From NCBI RefSeq assembly GCF_000165505.1, contig NC_014632.1, forward strand, positions 744,001 to 808,000: 64,000 nucleotides of DNA, read 5' to 3'. The translations under genes and the position numbers were made by a program. This document shows positions 11,546-20,280 of the stretch, one piece after another (the first letter of the stretch is position 1; every line of letters starts with the position of its first letter). The notes beneath the pieces are model-generated. The model had not been told where the DNA came from. It saw nothing but the letters and a program-made list of their open reading frames with translations, and made no database searches. This DNA is from Ilyobacter polytropus DSM 2926 (GTDB lineage Bacteria > Fusobacteriota > Fusobacteriia > Fusobacteriales > Fusobacteriaceae).

Positions 11546-13618
11546 GTGAAGATCCTATTGGAAATAGGTATGGAAGAGATACCTGCAAGGTTTTTGAAGC
11601 CTGCACTAAATGATATAGAAAAATATATTAAAAAAGAATTTGAAAGCCAGAGAATAAAGTTTGAAACCCTGAAAACTTTTGGGACTCCTAGAAGGTTAGT
11701 TCTTCTAGTAGACGGAGTTTCAGAAAAACAGGAAGATCTTGATATAGTAAATACAGGTCCTGCAAAAGAAGTAGCATATGACGTAAATGGTGAGCTTACA
11801 AGGGCCGGTGTTGGATTTGCAAAATCTCAAGGAATTGATCCTACAGATTTAGAGATTCTAGAAACTCCTAAAGGTGAATATATTGCCGTAAGAAAGTTTG
11901 TAGAGGGTAAGGATACTAAAGAGCTTCTTTCAGGACTACTTAAAAACCTTATCACAGGATTAACATTCCCAAAATCTATGAAATGGTCTGACTTAAGTAT
12001 GAAATTTGCAAGACCTGTCCAGTGGTTTTTGGCAATGGCAGACGATGAATTGGTAGAATTTGAAATAGAAGGGATAAAAAGTTCCTTAAATTCAAAGGGA
12101 CATAGATTTTTTGGCGAGGAGTTCGAAGTAACTTCAATTGAAGAGTACTTTACAAAACTCAGAGAAAATAACGTAATAGTGGACATAGAAGAAAGAAAAC
12201 AAATGATCATAGATATGATAAAGGAAAAATGCACCAAGACAGGGGAACAGGTACTTATAGAGCCTGACCTACTAGATGAGGTGACAAATCTTATAGAATA
12301 TCCTTATCCTATAGTTGGAACTTTCAACTCAGAATTTTTAGAGGTTCCTCAGGAAGTTCTTATTATATCTATGCAGGTCCACCAGAGGTACTTCCCTATT
12401 TTAGATAGCCAGGGTAAGCTTTTACCTAAATTTGTAGTTATCAGAAATGGGATAACATCTTCTGAGCATGTAAGAAAGGGTAATGAGAAGGTTTTATCTG
12501 CAAGACTTTCTGACGCCAGATTTTTTTATCAGGAAGATCAGAAAAAATCTCTTGAGGAATTTGTAGATAAGCTATCTACTGTGGTATTCCAAAAAGATCT
12601 AGGAACAATAGCTCAAAAAATCTCAAGGAGTAAAAAACTTGCTGAATATATGAGTGAAAAATTAGCATTAAGGGATTCAAAAGAAGATATTATGAGAACT
12701 ATTCATCTTGCAAAGGCTGACCTTGTCTCTAACATGATAGGGGAAAAAGAGTTTACAAAGCTCCAAGGGTTTATGGGAGCAGATTATGCTCTTAAGGCCG
12801 GAGAGAAAGAGGTCGTTTCAAAGGGTATAGAAGAGCATTATTACCCTAGATACCAGGGAGATAAGCTTCCTCAAGGTATAGAAGGAGTAATAGCAGGAAT
12901 ATGCGACAGAATGGATACCCTAGTGGGATGTTTTGGCATTGGTATGATCCCTAGTGGTTCAAAAGACCCTTTTGCCCTAAGAAGAGCCGCACTTGCAATT
13001 GTAAATATTATTTTAAATTCTAAACTTGTGATTTCTTTAGAGGAGCTTACTTCTAAAATGCTTGATATTTTAGAAGAAGACAATGTTCTTAAGAGACCTA
13101 AAAAAGATGTTTTAAAAGATCTAATGGAATTTTTTAAACAGAGAGCTATAAATGTATTTGCTGACCATGGACACAGAAAAGATGTTATTGGTGCAGTCTT
13201 AAGTATAGATTGTGATGTTCTTTTAGAGGCCTCTGAAAAAATAGAGACACTGGAAAAAGTTTCTAAGGAAGAGGGATTTAACGATCTGGTACTCCTTTTA
13301 AAAAGAGTAGGAAATATATCTAAAGATCATCATGAAAAAGCAATTTCAACTGATTTACTTGTAGAAGACGCTGAAAAGGAACTTCATAAATTTTATGTAG
13401 ACCTTGATTCAAAAACAGAATTGAATCTTCAAACTAAATCTTATGAAGAATTTTTTAGAAATATTCTTGCGGGTAAAAATGTAATAAATAGATTTTTTGA
13501 CAGTGTAATGGTAATGGATAAAGATCAATCGTTAAAAAATAATAGACTTTCTCTTTTGAAATCTCTAAATGAGATTTTTAACAGAGTAGCTAAATTGAAT
13601 TTGATAGAAGAAAAATAA
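11546..13618 (+). CDS. glyS: Glycyl-tRNA synthetase beta subunit
   Basis: This 690-residue beta subunit of tetrameric glycyl-tRNA synthetase contributes tRNA binding. The N-terminus LLEIGMEEIPARFL and the KSMKWSDLSMKFARPVQWF segment are typical. The start is GTG at 11546, chosen because AAAGGAGAG lies about 8 nt upstream and the nearby ATG at 11541 stops after two codons. An intrinsic terminator follows directly. Confidence 0.97.
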   Translation: MKILLEIGMEEIPARFLKPALNDIEKYIKKEFESQRIKFETLKTFGTPRRLVLLVDGVSEKQEDLDIVNTGPAKEVAYDVNGELTRAGVGFAKSQGIDPTDLEILETPKGEYIAVRKFVEGKDTKELLSGLLKNLITGLTFPKSMKWSDLSMKFARPVQWFLAMADDELVEFEIEGIKSSLNSKGHRFFGEEFEVTSIEEYFTKLRENNVIVDIEERKQMIIDMIKEKCTKTGEQVLIEPDLLDEVTNLIEYPYPIVGTFNSEFLEVPQEVLIISMQVHQRYFPILDSQGKLLPKFVVIRNGITSSEHVRKGNEKVLSARLSDARFFYQEDQKKSLEEFVDKLSTVVFQKDLGTIAQKISRSKKLAEYMSEKLALRDSKEDIMRTIHLAKADLVSNMIGEKEFTKLQGFMGADYALKAGEKEVVSKGIEEHYYPRYQGDKLPQGIEGVIAGICDRMDTLVGCFGIGMIPSGSKDPFALRRAALAIVNIILNSKLVISLEELTSKMLDILEEDNVLKRPKKDVLKDLMEFFKQRAINVFADHGHRKDVIGAVLSIDCDVLLEASEKIETLEKVSKEEGFNDLVLLLKRVGNISKDHHEKAISTDLLVEDAEKELHKFYVDLDSKTELNLQTKSYEEFFRNILAGKNVINRFFDSVMVMDKDQSLKNNRLSLLKSLNEIFNRVAKLNLIEEK

Positions 13619-13620
13619 AA

Positions 13621-13645
13621 AAGGTGTCTTAGGACGCCTTTTTTT
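13621..13645 (+). terminator. Intrinsic terminator of glyS
   Basis: An 8-bp stem (AAGGTGTC / GACGCCTT, one G-U pair) with loop TTAG is followed by a T run. It separates the aminoacyl-tRNA synthetase operon from the threonine leader. Confidence 0.85.
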
Positions 13646-13916
13646 ATTTATCCAATGAAAAACAAAAATATTTTGAAAAAAAACTTTTTTTTTTGTATCA
13701 AATAATTGGTACTAGCTTATAAAACTTCTCAATTAAAAGATCATGAAAATTTTATTAAATTTATAAAAGAAAGACAAGTTTTATAGAGTGAAACATTGTT
13801 TAACCCTTGTTAACTCTGGGTTTATTATGAAATATATTTATACTAAAGGCAGATTTTTATTAAAAACCTAGAAAAATTAATATAATGCAAGGAGTTATTT
13901 ATTAAAAATTTTTAAC
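13646..13916. other. AT-rich gap before the threonine leader
   Basis: No open frame or clear RNA structure is visible. There is a GTTTAAC/GTTAAC pair near 13799-13813 that could be a regulator site but matches no consensus I can defend. Confidence 0.4.
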
Positions 13917-13946
13917 TTGACGTTAATGGTCTATAACTGCTATTAT
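13917..13946 (+). promoter_or_regulatory. Promoter P1 of the threonine leader
   Basis: TTGACG (13917-13922), an 18-bp spacer and TATTAT (13941-13946) lie about 115 bp upstream of the leader-peptide start. Transcription from here would include the leader peptide and attenuator, and could read on into the riboswitch. Confidence 0.65.
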
Positions 13947-14060
13947 ACATAAAAGTTCTTCTAGGAAAGACAAAGTTATAAAAAACAGTAAAAAGTTTCG
14001 AAAGTAAAAATAAAAGTTGTGATAGAGTATTGTCACAAAAGTATAGAGGAGAGAAATGCT

Positions 14061-14102
14061 ATGTTTAGACTAACTATAACCACCACCATAATTATTATGT
14101 AG
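14061..14102 (+). CDS. thrL: Thr/Ile-rich leader peptide of the threonine operon
   Basis: A 13-residue frame, MFRLTITTTIIIM, starts at ATG 14061 behind GAGGAG with good spacing. Four residues are Thr and four are Ile, including TTT and III runs. It is followed by a stable hairpin and then a terminator hairpin, upstream of genes for threonine synthesis. This is the classical design in which ribosome stalling at Thr or Ile codons prevents termination, known from enterobacterial thrL. The symbol is given by analogy of function, not by homology. The alternative ATG at 14056 gives only five codons. Confidence 0.85.
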   Translation: MFRLTITTTIIIM

Positions 14103-14136
14103 GGTTTGCAATCAGAATTTCTGCTGATTCAGACCC
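14102..14136 (+). promoter_or_regulatory. Attenuator upstream hairpin
   Basis: The arms 14102-14115 and 14124-14136 pair over 13 bp (one G-U) with a single bulged C. The stem begins inside the leader-peptide stop codon, so ribosome position would decide whether it folds. Downstream, TTTTAGA (14138-14144) is complementary to TCTAAAA (14182-14188), a possible alternative pairing. Confidence 0.65.
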
Positions 14137-14196
14137 ATTTTAGAATAATGAAAATGTGGAATGTTTCTAAGTGGGATAGAGTCTAAAAGTAGTCAA

Positions 14197-14237
14197 ATGC
14201 CCGTTTAGAACATATGTTCTTAACGGGCATTTTTTTA
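14197..14237 (+). terminator. Attenuator terminator
   Basis: The arms ATGCCCGTT (14197-14205) and AACGGGCAT (14222-14230), extended by AGAACA/TGTTCT after a T-T mismatch, form a very stable hairpin followed by eight T residues. It lies about 95 nt after the leader-peptide stop and is the expected termination point when Thr- and Ile-tRNA are charged. Confidence 0.9.
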
Positions 14238-14376
14238 TAAAATTAAATAACAACCTCATCAAACAGTGAAAAGTCTCAGCCTGATAAATTATACATTAAT
14301 AAAGGGCTAAAGCTGTAGTGATTAAAGATAATTTTATCAGAGTGAACATAATAATGTTAAATAAAGAAAAAAACTT

Positions 14377-14405
14377 TTGACATTTCTTTAAAAATCTATT
14401 ATTAT
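14377..14405 (+). promoter_or_regulatory. Promoter P2, upstream of the glycine riboswitch
   Basis: A consensus TTGACA (14377-14382) and TATTAT (14400-14405) are spaced by 17 bp. An overlapping TATAAT lies at 14403-14408. This promoter sits after the attenuator and would produce a transcript controlled by the riboswitch alone. Confidence 0.75.
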
Positions 14406-14454
14406 AATCTTCAACACGGTAAATAAATGTCGAGTCACTGACAGCTTAATAAAT

Positions 14455-14605
14455 CGGATGAAGGTATAGGGAGAGAGCTGGTAAAACAGCCACCGAAGAA
14501 GTAAATCTTTCAGGTAAATGGACCTATGCTGGACGAACCTCAGGAGAGAACTGTTTGATCAGTCACCGAAGGAGTAACACTCTCAGGTAAAAGGACGGAG
14601 GAAAA
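14455..14605 (+). promoter_or_regulatory. Tandem glycine riboswitch
   Basis: Two glycine aptamers follow one another. Aptamer 1 (about 14464-14530) has GGGAGAGAGC, CCACCGAAGAAGTAAA and TTTCAGGTAAATGGAC, closed by TATAGG/CCTATG. Aptamer 2 (about 14536-14603) has CAGGAGAGAAC, TCACCGAAGGAGTAA and CTCTCAGGTAAAAGGAC, closed by CCTC/GAGG. These are the conserved cores of the gcvT/glycine riboswitch. It precedes the aspartate-to-threonine operon rather than glycine cleavage or transport genes. Confidence 0.92.
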
Positions 14606-14641
14606 CCCACGCAACTATTTTTGCGTATGGATTGTTTTCTT

Positions 14642-14668
14642 GAGGTTACATTTTTGTAACCTCTTTTT
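14642..14668 (+). terminator. Riboswitch expression-platform terminator
   Basis: An 8-bp stem GAGGTTAC (14642-14649) / GTAACCTC (14656-14663) with an AT loop is followed by a T run. GAGGTT is also complementary to AACCTC (14536-14541), the 5' side of aptamer 2's P1. If so, glycine binding would free GAGGTT for the terminator and switch the operon off. A minor hairpin, ACGCAA/TTGCGT, lies at 14609-14626. Confidence 0.85.
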
Positions 14669-14700
14669 ATATATTTAAATTTTTTTAGGGGGGATTATCA

Positions 14701-15675
14701 ATGAGTTATGTTGTAGCGGTAGTTGGGGCAACTGGTATGGTAGGAAGGAAAATGTTACAGGTACTTGAAGAAAAAAAGTTTCCTGTTAAAGAGATAAAGC
14801 TTTTGGCTTCGGCTAGGTCAGCTGGTAAAAAGATGACTTTCAGAGGAAAAGAAGTAGTTGTAGAGGAACTTAAAGCTGAAAGTTTTGTAGGAGTAGATGT
14901 AGCACTATTTTCAGCCGGTGGAGAAACAAGTAAGAAATTTGCTCCTGAAGCTGCAGAAAGAGGAGCTATCGTAGTAGACAACTCAAGTGCATGGAGAATG
15001 ACAGAAGATGTTCCGCTAGTGGTACCTGAAGTAAATCCAGAGGCTATAAAAAATAGCAAAATAATAGCAAATCCAAACTGTTCAACAACACAGTGTGTAC
15101 TTCCTTTAAAAGTGGTTCAAGACTTATTTGGACTAAAAAGGGTTGTTTACAGCACTTATCAGGCTGTCTCAGGATCTGGTAGAGATGGTATAGAGGAATT
15201 AAAAGAAGGGAAAAGATTTTATCCTTATCAGATAAAAAATAACTGCCTTCCGCATATAGATGTATTTTTAGACAATGGCTACACCAAAGAAGAAGAGAAG
15301 ATGATAAATGAAACCAGAAAGATTCTTGAAGTTCCAGAGTTGCCTATAACTGCAACTTGTGTAAGAGTACCAGTACTTAACTGTCACGGAGTTTCAATAA
15401 ACGTAGAAACAGAATCAGAAGTTGATATTCAGAAATTAAGAGATGCACTACAAGATTTTCCAGGAGTTGTGCTGTATGACGACCCTAAAAACAATGTATA
15501 CCCACTGGCTTCAGAATCAGATGAAAAAAATGAAGTATTCGTAGGAAGACTTAGAAAAGATCCAAGCATAAAAAATGGTCTCAACATGTGGGTAGTATCA
15601 GATAACCTTAGAAAAGGTGCAGCAACAAACACCGTACAAATAGCAGAGGTACTTGCAAAAGGGGGAAAATTATGA
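14701..15675 (+). CDS. asd: Aspartate-semialdehyde dehydrogenase
   Basis: It reduces aspartyl phosphate to aspartate semialdehyde with NADPH, the branch point for lysine and for homoserine. The N-terminal nucleotide-binding motif VGATGMVG and the active-site Cys127 in NPNCSTTQ are present. Length (324 aa) is normal. It is the first gene of the threonine operon, 33 nt after the riboswitch terminator, behind GGGGGGAT. It overlaps hom by 4 bp. Confidence 0.97.
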   Translation: MSYVVAVVGATGMVGRKMLQVLEEKKFPVKEIKLLASARSAGKKMTFRGKEVVVEELKAESFVGVDVALFSAGGETSKKFAPEAAERGAIVVDNSSAWRMTEDVPLVVPEVNPEAIKNSKIIANPNCSTTQCVLPLKVVQDLFGLKRVVYSTYQAVSGSGRDGIEELKEGKRFYPYQIKNNCLPHIDVFLDNGYTKEEEKMINETRKILEVPELPITATCVRVPVLNCHGVSINVETESEVDIQKLRDALQDFPGVVLYDDPKNNVYPLASESDEKNEVFVGRLRKDPSIKNGLNMWVVSDNLRKGAATNTVQIAEVLAKGGKL

Positions 15676-16625
15676 AATTAGGTGTAATAGGATTAGGTAC
15701 TGTAGGCGAAGGAGTCTTAAAAATTCTTACACTTGAGAAAGATAGATTAGAGGCCATGTTTGGAGAGAAAATAAATGTTACAAAAGTTTGTGACCTTGAA
15801 GAGAGAAACTTTCCATTTGGTAAATTTAACTTTACAAATAATTATAAAGAAATACTAGCAGATGAAGAGATCAATACAGTTGTAGAACTAATCGGCGGAG
15901 TGGGGATAGCCTTTGAAATAGCAAAGGAAATCCTTGGATCAGGAAGGAACTTAGTGTGTGCAAACAAGCATCTTATAGCTACTCACGGAAAAGAATTATT
16001 TGCTCTTGCAGAAAAAAATAATGTTAAGTTTTTCTTTGAGGCAGCAGTTGCAGGAGGGATTCCAGTTGTAACTCCCCTTAAAGAAGGACTTTTTCCAAAT
16101 AGATTTGAAAGAATAAGAGGGATACTAAACGGTACTTGTAACTATATGCTTTCAAAAATGGAAGAGGGAATGAGTTATGATGAAGCACTTGCAGACGCTC
16201 AGGAAAAAGGCTATGCAGAAGCAGATCCTACATTTGATGTAGCTGGTATCGATACAGGACATAAAATAAGTGTTCTTGCATATTTAGCTTGGGGAGAACT
16301 AAAGGAATTTTCATCAATACCTATAACAGGGATTGATAAGTTAACTAAGGAAGATATCGAAAAAGCCAAGGCAGAAGGAAAAAGATACAAACTTTTAGGA
16401 GAAGCATTTAAAGAAGAAGGAAAGCTGACAGTAAGAGTATCACCACAACTAATTGAAAGCAGCGAACTTCTTTATGATGTAGGCGGAGTTTACAATGCTG
16501 TGGAGATAGACGGTTCATATACAGGGAAAACAATATTCTTCGGAGAGGGAGCAGGGATGGACGCAACTGCTTCAGCTGTAGTATCTGACATATATAAAGT
16601 TTTAGCCAGTCGTTCTTGGAATTAA
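15672..16625 (+). CDS. hom: Homoserine dehydrogenase, short form without ACT domain
   Basis: It reduces aspartate semialdehyde to homoserine. A Rossmann motif GLGTVGEGV is at the N-terminus and GGIPVVTPLKEGL plus GILNGTCNYMLSKM form the catalytic region. At 317 residues it ends at the catalytic domain, lacking the C-terminal ACT domain usual in enzymes of about 400-440 aa. Loss of direct threonine feedback would fit the elaborate transcriptional leader. It is translationally coupled to asd by an ATGA overlap. Confidence 0.95.
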   Translation: MKLGVIGLGTVGEGVLKILTLEKDRLEAMFGEKINVTKVCDLEERNFPFGKFNFTNNYKEILADEEINTVVELIGGVGIAFEIAKEILGSGRNLVCANKHLIATHGKELFALAEKNNVKFFFEAAVAGGIPVVTPLKEGLFPNRFERIRGILNGTCNYMLSKMEEGMSYDEALADAQEKGYAEADPTFDVAGIDTGHKISVLAYLAWGELKEFSSIPITGIDKLTKEDIEKAKAEGKRYKLLGEAFKEEGKLTVRVSPQLIESSELLYDVGGVYNAVEIDGSYTGKTIFFGEGAGMDATASAVVSDIYKVLASRSWN

Positions 16626-16643: not shown

Positions 16644-17852
16644 ATGGCATTAATAGTACAGAAATTTGGTGGAACAAGCGTAAAGGACACTGAGAGACTG
16701 CAGGAAGTCGCTAAGTGGGTAGTTAAAAATAAAGAAGAGGGCAACAAGATGGTGGTAGTTGTATCTGCACCTGGAGGCATGACTGATTCTCTGATAAAAA
16801 GAGCAGAAGAGGTTAACAGCAACCCTCAAGGAAGAGAGTTAGATGTGCTACTCTCTGTGGGAGAACAAATATCAGCGGCACTTCTTTCAATGGCAATAGA
16901 ACAGCTTGGACACAAGGCCATCTCTTTTACCGGACCACAAGTAGGAATAAAGACGACTAATGATTTTAATAATGCAAAGATACTGGATATATCACCTGAA
17001 AAAATAATGGAAAAATTAAACAGTGACCATGTGGTTATAATAACAGGATTTCAAGGTGCAGACGAAAATGGTAATATTACTACCCTTGGAAGAGGGGGAT
17101 CGGATACAACGGCTGTAGCTGTGGGGGCAGCTATATCTGCAGATCAGGTGGAAATTTACACTGATGTAGATGGTATATACACAGCTGATCCGAGAGTGGT
17201 AAAAAATGCTGGAAAGATACCACAGGTGTCTTTCACAGAGATGATAGAGATGGCGGGGAAAGGAGCTAAAGTTCTTCACTGCAGAAGTGTGGAACTAGCT
17301 GCTAAATATGGGATCGATATTCATTTGAGATCAGCGTTTACATGGGAAGAAGGAACTTGGGTAAAGGGGGATGAAAAAATGGAAAAAGCAATGGTAAGAG
17401 GAATAACGCATGTCAAAGGACTTGCTAAATTGACTATAACTCAGCTTGAAAGTAATAATTATCTAAGTGATGTAATGGATATATTAGAAGATAGGGAAAT
17501 TGATATCAGACTGGTAAGTCAAGGACTTAATCCTTCTGGGCATTTTGAAATTTCATTCCTTTTAGAAGAAAAAGAGGCAGTGAGAGTTTCTAAACTTATC
17601 CAAGAGAAGCTGGGAAACAAAGAAAATATAGATGTAAAACTGAATTTGGGAATGGTCTCTGCAATAGGTATAGGGGTTCGTTCAAACAGGCTTCAGGGAA
17701 GTGTAATGAGAATACTTAATAACAACGGGATAAAACCAAAAATGATGTCTTCTTCGGAAACAAGTCTTTCTTATGTTGTAGCAGAAGAAAATGTAGATAA
17801 ATTAAAAAGGCTGATGCATGATGAACTTATAGAAAAAAGCCTTTCTGCCTAA
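16644..17852 (+). CDS. lysC: Aspartate kinase
   Basis: It phosphorylates aspartate, the first step of the Lys/Thr/Met pathway. The start MALIVQKFGGTSV, the GRGGSDTTAVA motif and IYTDVDGIYTADPR are family hallmarks. Two C-terminal ACT repeats (about 255-402) are present, so allosteric control by lysine and/or threonine is likely at this enzyme. Length (402 aa) is normal. SD AAGGAG, 18 bp after hom. Confidence 0.96.
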   Translation: MALIVQKFGGTSVKDTERLQEVAKWVVKNKEEGNKMVVVVSAPGGMTDSLIKRAEEVNSNPQGRELDVLLSVGEQISAALLSMAIEQLGHKAISFTGPQVGIKTTNDFNNAKILDISPEKIMEKLNSDHVVIITGFQGADENGNITTLGRGGSDTTAVAVGAAISADQVEIYTDVDGIYTADPRVVKNAGKIPQVSFTEMIEMAGKGAKVLHCRSVELAAKYGIDIHLRSAFTWEEGTWVKGDEKMEKAMVRGITHVKGLAKLTITQLESNNYLSDVMDILEDREIDIRLVSQGLNPSGHFEISFLLEEKEAVRVSKLIQEKLGNKENIDVKLNLGMVSAIGIGVRSNRLQGSVMRILNNNGIKPKMMSSSETSLSYVVAEENVDKLKRLMHDELIEKSLSA

Positions 17853-17870: not shown

Positions 17871-18800
17871 GTGGCTGTTTATACTAAATTGAGCGATGAA
17901 TATATAAAGAATATATTGAAAAGTTACTCCTTTAAAAAGGTGGACAGGATAGAGGAGATATCTGAGGGGATATTAAATACTAATTATTTTGTAGAAGGTG
18001 ACAAAGGTAAATTTATTTTTAGAATATTAGAAGGTGAGAGGGATTACACAGAAGAGGTAAAGGAACTCGAATTTCTAGAATATCTTAATTTAAATGGGTT
18101 TCCATGTCCAACGGCTATAAAAAATGATTTAGGAGAAAATTATACATTTATAGATGGTAAGATGACTTCGGTATTTACATTTATAGAAGGAGAAAAAGTA
18201 AAGTCTATAAATGAAAATAATATTAAAGAGATAGGCCAAAAGCTAGGTAAAATGCATAACCTCTTGAAAGACAGAGATATAAAAAGAAACAGAAAAATAG
18301 ATATGCAGTATTTTTATGATATAATATCAAAGGCTGATCTCAGAGGAATACTTAAAGATGATTATGATTTCATTATGAAGTATTATGAAAGGGCATCTAA
18401 AATAGATTACTCAAATCTTCCCTTTGGTATAATTCATAACGATATTTTTCCTGACAATGTTTTTATGCAAGAAGGTGAAATATCAGGTATAATAGATTTC
18501 AACGACTGTCTTAGAGGACCTCTTATTCTTGATTTGGCTATAGTTATAAGTTTTTGGATAAGAAACAGAGGTTTTTCAGATGAAGTTGAAAATAGGCTAA
18601 CTGAAGTATTTTTAAATGCCTATGAGAGTGAAAGAAAGATAACCGAAGAAGAGAAGGAGCTCATGAATGAAGCTCTCATAAGAATTGCTCTTACTTTTAT
18701 ATTTTTGAGAGTTAATAAATTTCATGTAGAGGACAACAGCAGTGTAAATATGGAGTTTAAAAATTACAAAGATCTCCTTCCATTGCTGAGATATTTCTAA
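17871..18800 (+). CDS. thrB: Homoserine kinase, aminoglycoside-phosphotransferase-fold type
   Basis: This 309-residue kinase has the APH fold: catalytic HNDIFPDN (about residue 188) and metal-binding IIDFND. The N-terminus MAVYTKLSDEYI matches the alternative homoserine kinase family rather than GHMP-type ThrB. Placement between lysC and thrC supports phosphorylation of homoserine. The start is GTG at 17871 behind GGAGGTCGG. Function is inferred from fold and context. Confidence 0.9.
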   Translation: MAVYTKLSDEYIKNILKSYSFKKVDRIEEISEGILNTNYFVEGDKGKFIFRILEGERDYTEEVKELEFLEYLNLNGFPCPTAIKNDLGENYTFIDGKMTSVFTFIEGEKVKSINENNIKEIGQKLGKMHNLLKDRDIKRNRKIDMQYFYDIISKADLRGILKDDYDFIMKYYERASKIDYSNLPFGIIHNDIFPDNVFMQEGEISGIIDFNDCLRGPLILDLAIVISFWIRNRGFSDEVENRLTEVFLNAYESERKITEEEKELMNEALIRIALTFIFLRVNKFHVEDNSSVNMEFKNYKDLLPLLRYF

Positions 18801-18810
18801 GGAGGAAAAA

Positions 18811-20280
18811 ATGAGATACGTTAGTACTAGGGGAAACCTTGAAAAAAGTTATTCGGCAGCAGAAGCCATAAGAGAGGGAATGGTTCCAGGAGGAGGACTT
18901 TTTGTACCTGAGAGTTTTCCTAAATTTACTCTTGACGAAATAAACAGCTTGAAAAAACTTAACTACCAAGAAGTTTCTATTGAAGTACTGAAAAAATATC
19001 TTTCTGACTATACAGAAGAAGAGATAAAAGAATGTGTAGAGGGTGCTTACAGCGACATTAATTTCTCACACAAAGAAAGAACTCCTGTGGTGAAAGTCGA
19101 GGATGAAGTATATGTAATGGAACTATGGCATGGTCCAACAGCTGCATTTAAGGATATGGCACTTCAGCTTATGCCAAGACTCTTTGTGAAAGCTAGAGAG
19201 AAAACAAATGCTGTAGACGATACCCTTATACTTGTTGCTACTTCTGGTGATACTGGAAAGGCAGCTCTTGAAGGATTTAAAAATCTTAAGGGGATTAAAG
19301 TAGTTGTTTTTTATCCAGAAGAGGGTGTAAGCCAGGTTCAAAAACTTCAAATGATAACAACAGAGGGAGATAATCTAACTGTTTCTGCATTAAAAGGGAA
19401 CTTTGATGACTGCCAGACAGGTGTAAAGGATATTTTTTCAGACGAAGAGTTTAATAGTATTTTGAAAGGCCTAGAGCTGTCTTCGGCAAATTCCATAAAT
19501 CTAGGCAGACTTCTTCCTCAAGTAATATACTATTTTAAGGCCTATGCACAGATGCTGAGAGACAATGAAATTACCCTAGGGGAAAAAGTGGACTTCTGTG
19601 TTCCAACAGGAAACTTTGGAAATATACTAGCAGGTTATTATGCTATGGAAATGGGTCTTCCAGTTGGAAAACTGATCTGTGCTTCTAATAAAAACAATGT
19701 TTTGACAGACTTTCTTCAGAGCGGAACCTATGACAAAAAAAGAGATTTTCATAAAACAATGAGTCCATCTATGGATATTTTAGTTTCTTCAAATCTTGAA
19801 AGATTTCTTTATCATACACTGGGAGATGCTGACAAAGTTTCTAAGATCTACGAAAGGTTCAATAGAGACGGAGTTTTCAGTATAGAAAAGCAGGAGCTAG
19901 AAAATATTCAGAATATTATGGAATCTGGATACACTGATGAAGATATGTGTATAGATACAATAAAAAATGTTTTTGAAAATGATAACTATATAATGGACAC
20001 TCATACTTCGGTAGCTATGAATGTAGCACTTAGAAAAAAAACTGAAAGAAAAGTAGTAGTATTATCCACAGCCAGTATATATAAATTTCCTTCAAGTGTC
20101 TTAAGGTCATTTGGGAAACAGGGAGAAACTGAGTTTAAAGAAATAGAGATGTTAAATGAAATAACAGGTGTAGAACTTCACAGTGCAGTAAAAGGGATAG
20201 ATAAACTTCCTGTACTCCATAAAAACTGCATAGAAAAAGATGGAATGAAAGAATTTTTGGAAAATCTAATAAAAAAATAA
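18811..20280 (+). CDS. thrC: Threonine synthase
   Basis: This PLP enzyme converts O-phosphohomoserine to threonine. The PLP lysine is Lys114 in GPTAAFKDMALQ, and VATSGDTGKAAL is the phosphate-binding loop. Length (489 aa) fits the long bacterial form with MRYVSTRG at the N-terminus. It closes the operon, which encodes the whole path from aspartate to threonine. Confidence 0.97.
   Translation: MRYVSTRGNLEKSYSAAEAIREGMVPGGGLFVPESFPKFTLDEINSLKKLNYQEVSIEVLKKYLSDYTEEEIKECVEGAYSDINFSHKERTPVVKVEDEVYVMELWHGPTAAFKDMALQLMPRLFVKAREKTNAVDDTLILVATSGDTGKAALEGFKNLKGIKVVVFYPEEGVSQVQKLQMITTEGDNLTVSALKGNFDDCQTGVKDIFSDEEFNSILKGLELSSANSINLGRLLPQVIYYFKAYAQMLRDNEITLGEKVDFCVPTGNFGNILAGYYAMEMGLPVGKLICASNKNNVLTDFLQSGTYDKKRDFHKTMSPSMDILVSSNLERFLYHTLGDADKVSKIYERFNRDGVFSIEKQELENIQNIMESGYTDEDMCIDTIKNVFENDNYIMDTHTSVAMNVALRKKTERKVVVLSTASIYKFPSSVLRSFGKQGETEFKEIEMLNEITGVELHSAVKGIDKLPVLHKNCIEKDGMKEFLENLIKK

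Follow-up and report, generated by a model that had tools for sequence, protein, structure and literature searches.

Expression of the enterobacterial thr operon is governed by thrL, a Thr/Ile leader-peptide attenuator. The leader described here lies upstream of a threonine operon in a 64,000-nt window, the whole stretch of DNA that was analysed, from Ilyobacter polytropus DSM 2926 (G000:C1:744001-808000, in a genome of 3.13 Mb on three contigs). It resembles thrL in that its thr genes are preceded by hairpins, a terminator and a short peptide with many Thr and Ile codons, but differs in its five-segment logic, with a hairpin 1:2 that would favour read-through, in its phylum, and in the operon that it precedes. 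The Rfam Thr leader family, which we take to be RF00506, gave no match in positions 13900-14720 at E values up to 1. A T-box was also considered and rejected, with no Rfam match in the whole window at gathering score or in 13900-14720 up to E 1.

As far as the available part of the source goes, the closest known arrangement is a glycine riboswitch combined with a T-box-Ser before serC/serA/serS, for which two cases are described (PMC9481103). Both are leaders of amino-acid biosynthesis genes in which a tandem glycine riboswitch, taken as OFF, accompanies a device that senses tRNA charging. That device is a T-box and the amino acid serine in the described system, whereas here we find a translated Thr/Ile leader peptide, threonine as the product and a promoter-like site between the two devices. 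In the accessible part of a regulon survey, glycine-riboswitch genes belong to glycine metabolism, glycine transport and serine metabolism (PMC3766115). The riboswitch in the window shares with those before agcS, which include a paralogue in the same genome, the tandem aptamers, a single terminator platform and an OFF-type alternative pairing, but its target is threonine synthesis, which the accessible parts of PMC3766115 and PMC12452182 do not name. Within open-licence PubMed Central literature, available in part, we found neither a glycine riboswitch before a thr operon nor a thr leader-peptide attenuator in Fusobacteriota, and neither arrangement occurs in the accessible portions of PMC12452182, PMC11477304, PMC3766115, PMC8632094, PMC6944388, PMC9481103, PMC12060979 and PMC12674515. 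An earlier sequence-only reading of this DNA had known of no described system combining these devices for a thr operon in this phylum, and none was found in that same literature. The parts are ordinary ones, no description of their combination or target was found, and we regard the conserved, doubly controlled leader as real.

Upstream of asd the elements occur in the order promoter-like site, leader peptide with attenuator terminator, second promoter-like site, tandem glycine riboswitch and terminator. Stacked double RNA control with a promoter between the two devices had been proposed from the sequence, and two stacked devices with a promoter-like site between them were recovered in all three searched genomes of the window's genus, each with a terminator that an antiterminator could oppose. 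Our main reading, to which we assign a probability of roughly 0.7, is a two-input RNA leader with a by-pass, an attenuator followed by an OFF glycine riboswitch, on an operon serving as a source of glycine as well as threonine. Provided that both promoters work, as we infer, the order of elements means that transcripts from the first (P1) would meet the attenuator and then the riboswitch, while those from the second (P2) would meet the riboswitch alone. P2 would then let the cell make threonine for glycine even though Thr-tRNA is charged.

The gene order asd-hom-lysC-thrB-thrC given previously is supported by family matches on the + strand, in the case of thrB by best match only. It comprises asd (aspartate-semialdehyde dehydrogenase, 14701..15675; NF011456 and TIGR01296 over cut-off), hom (homoserine dehydrogenase of 317 aa, 15672..16625; NF004976 over cut-off), lysC (aspartate kinase, 16644..17852; NF005154 over cut-off), thrB (homoserine kinase of the APH-fold type, 17871..18800; PF01636, with the best NCBIfam match, PRK05231, at 187 bits below its cut-off of 271) and thrC (threonine synthase, 18811..20280; TIGR00260 over cut-off). 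The nearest named asd locus is from a Cetobacterium MAG (66% identity). Hom, which had one match in the window's genome, showed only NAD-binding and catalytic domains and no ACT domain (Pfam, E 1e-5), hence allosteric control of this enzyme by threonine may be absent and RNA control may weigh more heavily. Open frames of hom matches outside g1, g3, g13 and g14 span approximately 361-447 aa. Frames of 315-335 aa occur in the other genomes that have a Thr/Ile leader; g3, in which the scan detected no leader, has them too.

P1 (TTGACG-18-TATTAT, with TG before the second hexamer, 13917..13946, +) and P2 (TTGACA-17-TATTAT, 14377..14405, +), both already called promoters from the sequence, outrank all other sigma-70-like matches on the + strand between 13400 and 15300. 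Such matches are common in this region (12 on both strands vs 7.2 +/- 2.9 in shuffles), so the case for P1 and P2 rests on their conservation in two relatives. Indeed, in the alignment P1 is kept in G042 and G043 beside diverged sequence, and promoter-like sites were seen by eye at the position equivalent to P1 in G053 and the g14 genomes.

Downstream of P1, the predicted 13-codon leader peptide with four Thr and four Ile was present (MFRLTITTTIIIM plus stop, 14061..14102, +), identical in three genomes and preceded by a Shine-Dalgarno stretch recognised by eye (AGGAG, 14045..14054, +). The leader thus carries a short ORF rich in codons for the product and provided with a ribosome site, as is found in attenuators of this kind. 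No comparable ORF with a Shine-Dalgarno stretch arose in 5000 shuffles of the 1082-nt intergenic region, and eight did when the Shine-Dalgarno demand was dropped, with demands chosen post hoc when the peptide was already known. On the strength of these shuffles and of a scan of asd/hom loci for Thr/Ile ORFs (below), we reject a chance ORF.

RNA folding placed a hairpin 1:2 directly at the stop codon (14102..14136, +; arms 14102-14115 and 14124-14136), followed by an extension of segment 2 able to pair with segment 3 in 2:3 duplexes (14134..14145, +), segment 3 itself, the 5′ strand of the proposed antiterminator (14163..14175, +; folding and duplexes), and the attenuator terminator (14195..14236, +). 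Segment 4 (14200-14211, +; duplexes) is common to the 5′ arm of this terminator and to the antiterminator. The hairpin and terminator of the sequence-only reading therefore stand, except that the tail has seven T and not eight. The terminator was missing from the list returned by a simple terminator scan of 13400-15300, however RNA folding does show it, and the region folds far better than its shuffles (z −6.5 and −6.4). Base-pair changes among three genomes, seen by eye, keep the stem: one position has T-A, G-C and A-T, and another has A-T vs C-G.

The segments can form competing structures. Duplexes of segment 2 (14124-14145) with segment 3 reached −12.3 to −17.7 kcal/mol in seven genomes, and the pairing of segment 3 with segment 4 comprised 11 consecutive pairs in G000 and nine in G053. 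When the spacer was shuffled, the 3:4 duplex was matched in 20 (G000), 21 (G042), 12 (G053) and 48 (G057) of 1000 cases, and it was unremarkable in G043, G055 and G054 (93, 122 and 155 per 1000); G059 was left out of this test, as its sequence equals that of G054. The duplexes that would oppose terminator and antiterminator were thus present in all seven genomes and beat shuffles at the 5% level in four.

In the mechanism that these pairings suggest, a shortage of charged Thr-tRNA (or Ile-tRNA) would stall the ribosome within the leader peptide, hairpin 1:2 would stay, and segment 3 would pair with the 5′ arm of the terminator, so that transcription continues. When the peptide is completed, a ribosome at the stop codon would cover segment 1, 2:3 would pair and the terminator would form. 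This parity, in which 1:2 favours 3:4 in a five-segment logic, resembles that of the his attenuator and not that of trp. We modelled the ribosome states at equilibrium on transcripts ended before the 3′ arm of the terminator, comparing the best value for a stalled ribosome with that for a ribosome at the stop codon. The core pairing of segment 4 fell from Thr-stalled to stop codon (G053, 0.94 to 0.43; G057, 0.99 to 0.76; G054, G055 and G059, 0.97 to 0.56 each). The drop had the predicted direction in eight of eight genomes, but in the window's genus it was near nil at equilibrium (0.82 to 0.79 in G000, 0.78 to 0.71 in G042, 0.78 to 0.77 in G043). Full-length folds made the terminator in 22 of 24 cases (eight genomes in three ribosome states, the exceptions being two G057 states), as expected when kinetics are ignored. 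Overall, we consider the modelled support for this attenuator mechanism fair.

Two further elements were considered in the attenuator region. A duplex between the leader ORF (14064-14083) and 14171-14187, present in all four sequences tried, is a candidate safeguard for untranslated RNA, but in the untranslated, truncated G000 transcript the antiterminator still prevails (0.79). For the stretch from the first terminator to P2 (14238-14376), a structured element was considered and rejected, its fold having z −1.47 and 17 of 200 shuffles being equally good.

Beyond P2, both of the tandem glycine aptamers predicted earlier score above the Rfam gathering threshold of 32 bits for RF00504, aptamer I (14458..14535, +) with 62.0 bits and aptamer II (14538..14601, +; P1 helix 14538-14541 with 14598-14601) with 48.1 bits. 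Both contain the core GGAGAG. The variant class RF03166 (glycine-GGAnGA) was rejected as an identity, as its score of 98.5 bits lies below the cut-off of 110; the RF00504 pair sums to 110.1 bits. The second terminator, likewise foreseen, was detected by the scan as a hairpin at 14642-14663, and with its T tail it spans 14642..14668 (+; scan and folding). Folding and covariation point to an antiterminator whose 5′ strand (14536..14547, +) overlaps the P1 helix and conserved core of aptamer II and whose 3′ strand (14636..14647, +) enters the 5′ arm of the terminator.

This antiterminator had a mean pairing of 0.93 in folds made before the 3′ arm of the terminator exists. When the P1 helix of aptamer II was forced, the 5′ arm of the terminator was freed at a cost of 11.5 kcal/mol (−41.1 vs −52.6) in an energy model free of ligand, and the full-length riboswitch fold made the terminator. 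In silico, the leader thus has a platform on which the aptamer P1 helix with the terminator and the antiterminator are mutually exclusive. Since the antiterminator pairs with the P1 strand of aptamer II, glycine binding would go with terminator formation, as in a riboswitch of OFF type. If glycine is lacking, this strand of the helix, together with part of the core, would pair with the 5′ arm of the terminator; with glycine bound, the strand would be kept within aptamer II and the terminator would form. We regard this modelled mechanism as well argued.

Comparison of paralogues provides some covariation for the antiterminator, which is kept with other letters, AACCTCAGG with TTGAGGTT before asd and AGCCTCTGG with AGAGGCT before the aldolase. 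Over nine sequences (eight distinct), all 96 of 96 cells were standard pairs and two pairs showed a two-sided change, with these changes tracing to approximately two events among the paralogues. The paired share and the covariation score were each reached by one of 500 shuffles, the number of two-sided pairs by 203 and the number of pair types by 386. Sliding the partner by 1-3 columns lowered pairing to 35-66%, although one of the compared sequences had supplied the structure, which is therefore favoured over the slid versions. The row-by-row comparison that gave the letters quoted above used the thr, aldolase and G043c rows, with four grdX-linked rows kept for a side remark and G068 lacking an anchor. 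Two other alignments, in which the terminator 3′ arm of G053 is shifted, were not used for pair counts.

The riboswitch of the thr operon shares 0.89-0.91 identity with those before agcS and 0.88-0.89 with those before the aldolase. P2 with its flanks was identical to the agcS riboswitch promoter of G000 at 44 of 60 positions, a score reached by 1 of 500 shuffles that kept the boxes, and it bore no likeness to the aldolase promoter (396 of 500 shuffles reached the score). The agcS likeness was weaker in G042 and G043 (10 to 15 and 12 to 44 of 500 shuffles). These sequence comparisons offer no more than a suggestion that a cassette of promoter, riboswitch and terminator moved in between the attenuator and asd, a move that would account for the promoter lying there.

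We searched 98 genomes of the phylum. In the three of the window's genus among them (G000, G042 and G043) the order of all elements is kept, and the tandem riboswitch ends approximately 90 nt before asd. Their alignment shows a leader ORF identical to the letter and conserves P1, hairpin, terminator, P2, aptamers and second terminator, with the sequence before P1 diverged. The five-gene thr operon also occurs in G053 and in six g14 genomes (G054, G055, G057, G059, G060 and G061), cut by contig ends in G060 and G061. In these five genomes of two other genera, diverged Thr/Ile peptides precede asd: G053 (MLRLISTTTTIIMI), G055 (MYIKNMMTTIITLT), G054 and G059 (MFIKNMITTIITLT) and G057 (MFTKIISITIIMIT), and each is followed by a hairpin and terminator. 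A glycine riboswitch was not found before asd in G053 or g14, where the attenuator stands alone. Of the elements that the sequence-only reading proposed to seek in relatives, the attenuator thus extends beyond the genus and the riboswitch at the thr operon is confined to it.

The scan for Thr/Ile ORFs with a ribosome site, its demands fixed after the first peptides had been seen, covered 27 asd/hom loci and gave seven hits on the operon strand, one before asd in each of the seven loci with an operon start, and none in the 20 others (including L148 and L149, where a contig end cuts the operon). The opposite strands of the 27 loci (227,444 nt) gave no hits. Applied to the + strand of 80 asd loci, the same scan gave a single hit (L086), 4.7 kb downstream of the asd start, which was taken as chance.

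We also searched the window and the 80 asd loci (L031 being Cetobacterium) with a home-made glycine model, R1, built with only 11 pairs from aptamers I and II aligned together. Its sensitivity is limited, as it detects aptamer II of the window and misses aptamer I. The best match elsewhere (L089, 21.4 bits, E 0.012), approximately 1.1 kb before asd, was rejected as a glycine riboswitch, Rfam finding none there up to E 1, and three other matches had E values of 0.24 to 0.95. The hairpin GGATGCAACGTCACGTTGCTTTTT, a candidate for another terminator upstream of asd in G053 and g14, was likewise rejected as thr control, being a dispersed repeat. This terminator-like palindrome has, with at most two mismatches, 83 matches in G053, 55 in G054, 53 in G055 and 70 in G059 and none in G000, G042, G043 or G057, and asd directly follows a copy of it in G053, G054 and G055 at the least (L143, L144 and L145).

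RF00504 matches were present in 57 of the 98 genomes. For 61 riboswitch loci from 39 of these, the first same-strand downstream ORFs of at least 120 aa were compared with five reference proteins, which identified an AGCS symporter (n = 33), threonine aldolase (n = 9), a grdX-like gene (n = 8), asd (n = 3) and a protein that is presumably UPF0210-like (n = 4), with four loci lacking such an ORF before the contig end. The grdX-like gene was the first ORF in seven of its eight loci and the second in one, and in four of the eight it lay approximately 2 kb off. In the other 18 genomes, coordinates compared by hand placed every riboswitch more than 5 kb from any asd or hom match. Judged by these two genes, glycine control of threonine synthesis is thus found in three of 57 genomes, all of one genus.

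Each of G000, G042 and G043 carries glycine riboswitches at the thr operon, an L-threonine aldolase and an AGCS symporter. The riboswitch-linked aldolase (353 aa, on C2) belongs by sequence to the L-threonine aldolase family, with 188.9 bits to PF01212 and the L-threonine aldolase 5vye as its best solved relative (E 2.7e-78); against the NCBIfam equivalog it remains under the cut-off (76 of 312 bits). In g14, thrC is followed on its own strand by a riboswitch-aldolase unit, approximately 60 nt (G055) and 110 nt (G057) from the end of the thrC match, or 1.1 to 1.2 kb away past an opposite-strand open frame (G054 and G059). This neighbourhood ties threonine synthesis to glycine independently of the leader studied here. 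We read the threonine operon, with the aldolase and the symporter, as a likely member of a regulon for glycine supply that glycine shuts down. The wider reading, in which the aspartate-threonine-glycine route and uptake form one glycine regulon, with a cassette placed behind an older attenuator and P2 by-passing the charging check, we hold at even odds.

Three other explanations bear on the same evidence. If the riboswitch were an ON switch, high glycine would open the operon, for example to rebalance amino acids, and glycine riboswitches of either sign are indeed known from the accessible parts of PMC6944388 and PMC11477304. In the competing structures, however, it is the glycine-bound form that goes with the terminator, and this platform also precedes the AGCS symporter, a context reported, in those parts, as OFF in other bacteria (PMC11477304, PMC6944388), which makes an ON switch improbable. 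A quite unlikely explanation, although one to which the resemblance of P2 and the riboswitch to the agcS leader (promoter 44/60, riboswitch 0.90) would lend itself as with the move of a whole cassette, is that a single device works, the cassette having been inserted behind an old attenuator with P1 and the leader peptide now idle, or the reverse. The attenuator standing alone in G053 and g14 also fits this, but by eye the sequence before P1 is less well conserved than P1 itself, the leader ORF and the attenuator stem, and compensatory change occurs in that stem, which argues for upkeep.

The third explanation retains an OFF switch and takes glycine as a sign that amino acids in general are plentiful, or the switch as a guard against glycine toxicity, with no feeding of glycine from threonine. 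Each of G000, G042 and G043 has one glyA match and a full-length serA over cut-off, hence glycine is probably also made from serine and threonine is not necessarily its main source. Searches for serC add little, as it was under cut-off in all eight genomes searched (best in G042, 337 of 443.6 bits; 61 bits in the window's genome) and the cut-off was passed in only four of 14 control genomes. Against this explanation stand the threonine aldolase after the riboswitch in nine of 61 loci, one per genome of the genus, and the glycine cleavage gene gcvP, which was under cut-off in the three genus genomes and over it in the other five (G057 barely, 26.7 vs 26 bits), so that glycine cleavage seems absent from the genus genomes. 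We therefore find it unlikely, and we infer, under the two-input reading with an OFF riboswitch, a flux from threonine to glycine. That reading carries a puzzle of its own. If glycine vetoes both promoters, a glycine-rich, threonine-poor cell would be left without homoserine and so without threonine, and methionine by its usual route would also be blocked, hom being single-copy. Possible answers are that the second terminator leaks, that the habitat does not present such conditions, or that the sign is wrong.

If the two-input reading is true, it would add threonine synthesis to the targets of glycine riboswitches, provide a case of a translated leader-peptide attenuator followed by a metabolite riboswitch on a single operon that also has a by-pass promoter, and establish thr leader-peptide attenuation in Fusobacteriota, with comparative support from eight genomes. 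It predicts that glycine in threonine-free medium slows growth. The leader allows a clean test of what two terminators in a row do together, and of whether threonine supplies glycine in these anaerobes.

Several riboswitch loci elsewhere in the phylum showed arrangements of their own. Tandem riboswitches with an OFF-like antiterminator occur at L192, L194, L195 and L210 (G054, G055, G056 and G059), where the nearest identified same-strand gene is grdX-like and approximately 2 kb off; in G054 the stretch that separates riboswitch and grdX-like gene is overlapped by a 361-codon open frame on the opposite strand. At L180, L181, L186 and L187 (G040, G041, G045 and G046) the riboswitch lies 0.4 to 0.6 kb before the UPF0210-like gene. 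In G044 (L183 and L184) two AGCS symporter genes follow one another, each with its own tandem riboswitch in front, and a threonine aldolase gene is preceded by two tandem riboswitches in a row, the first of which is cut by the contig start.
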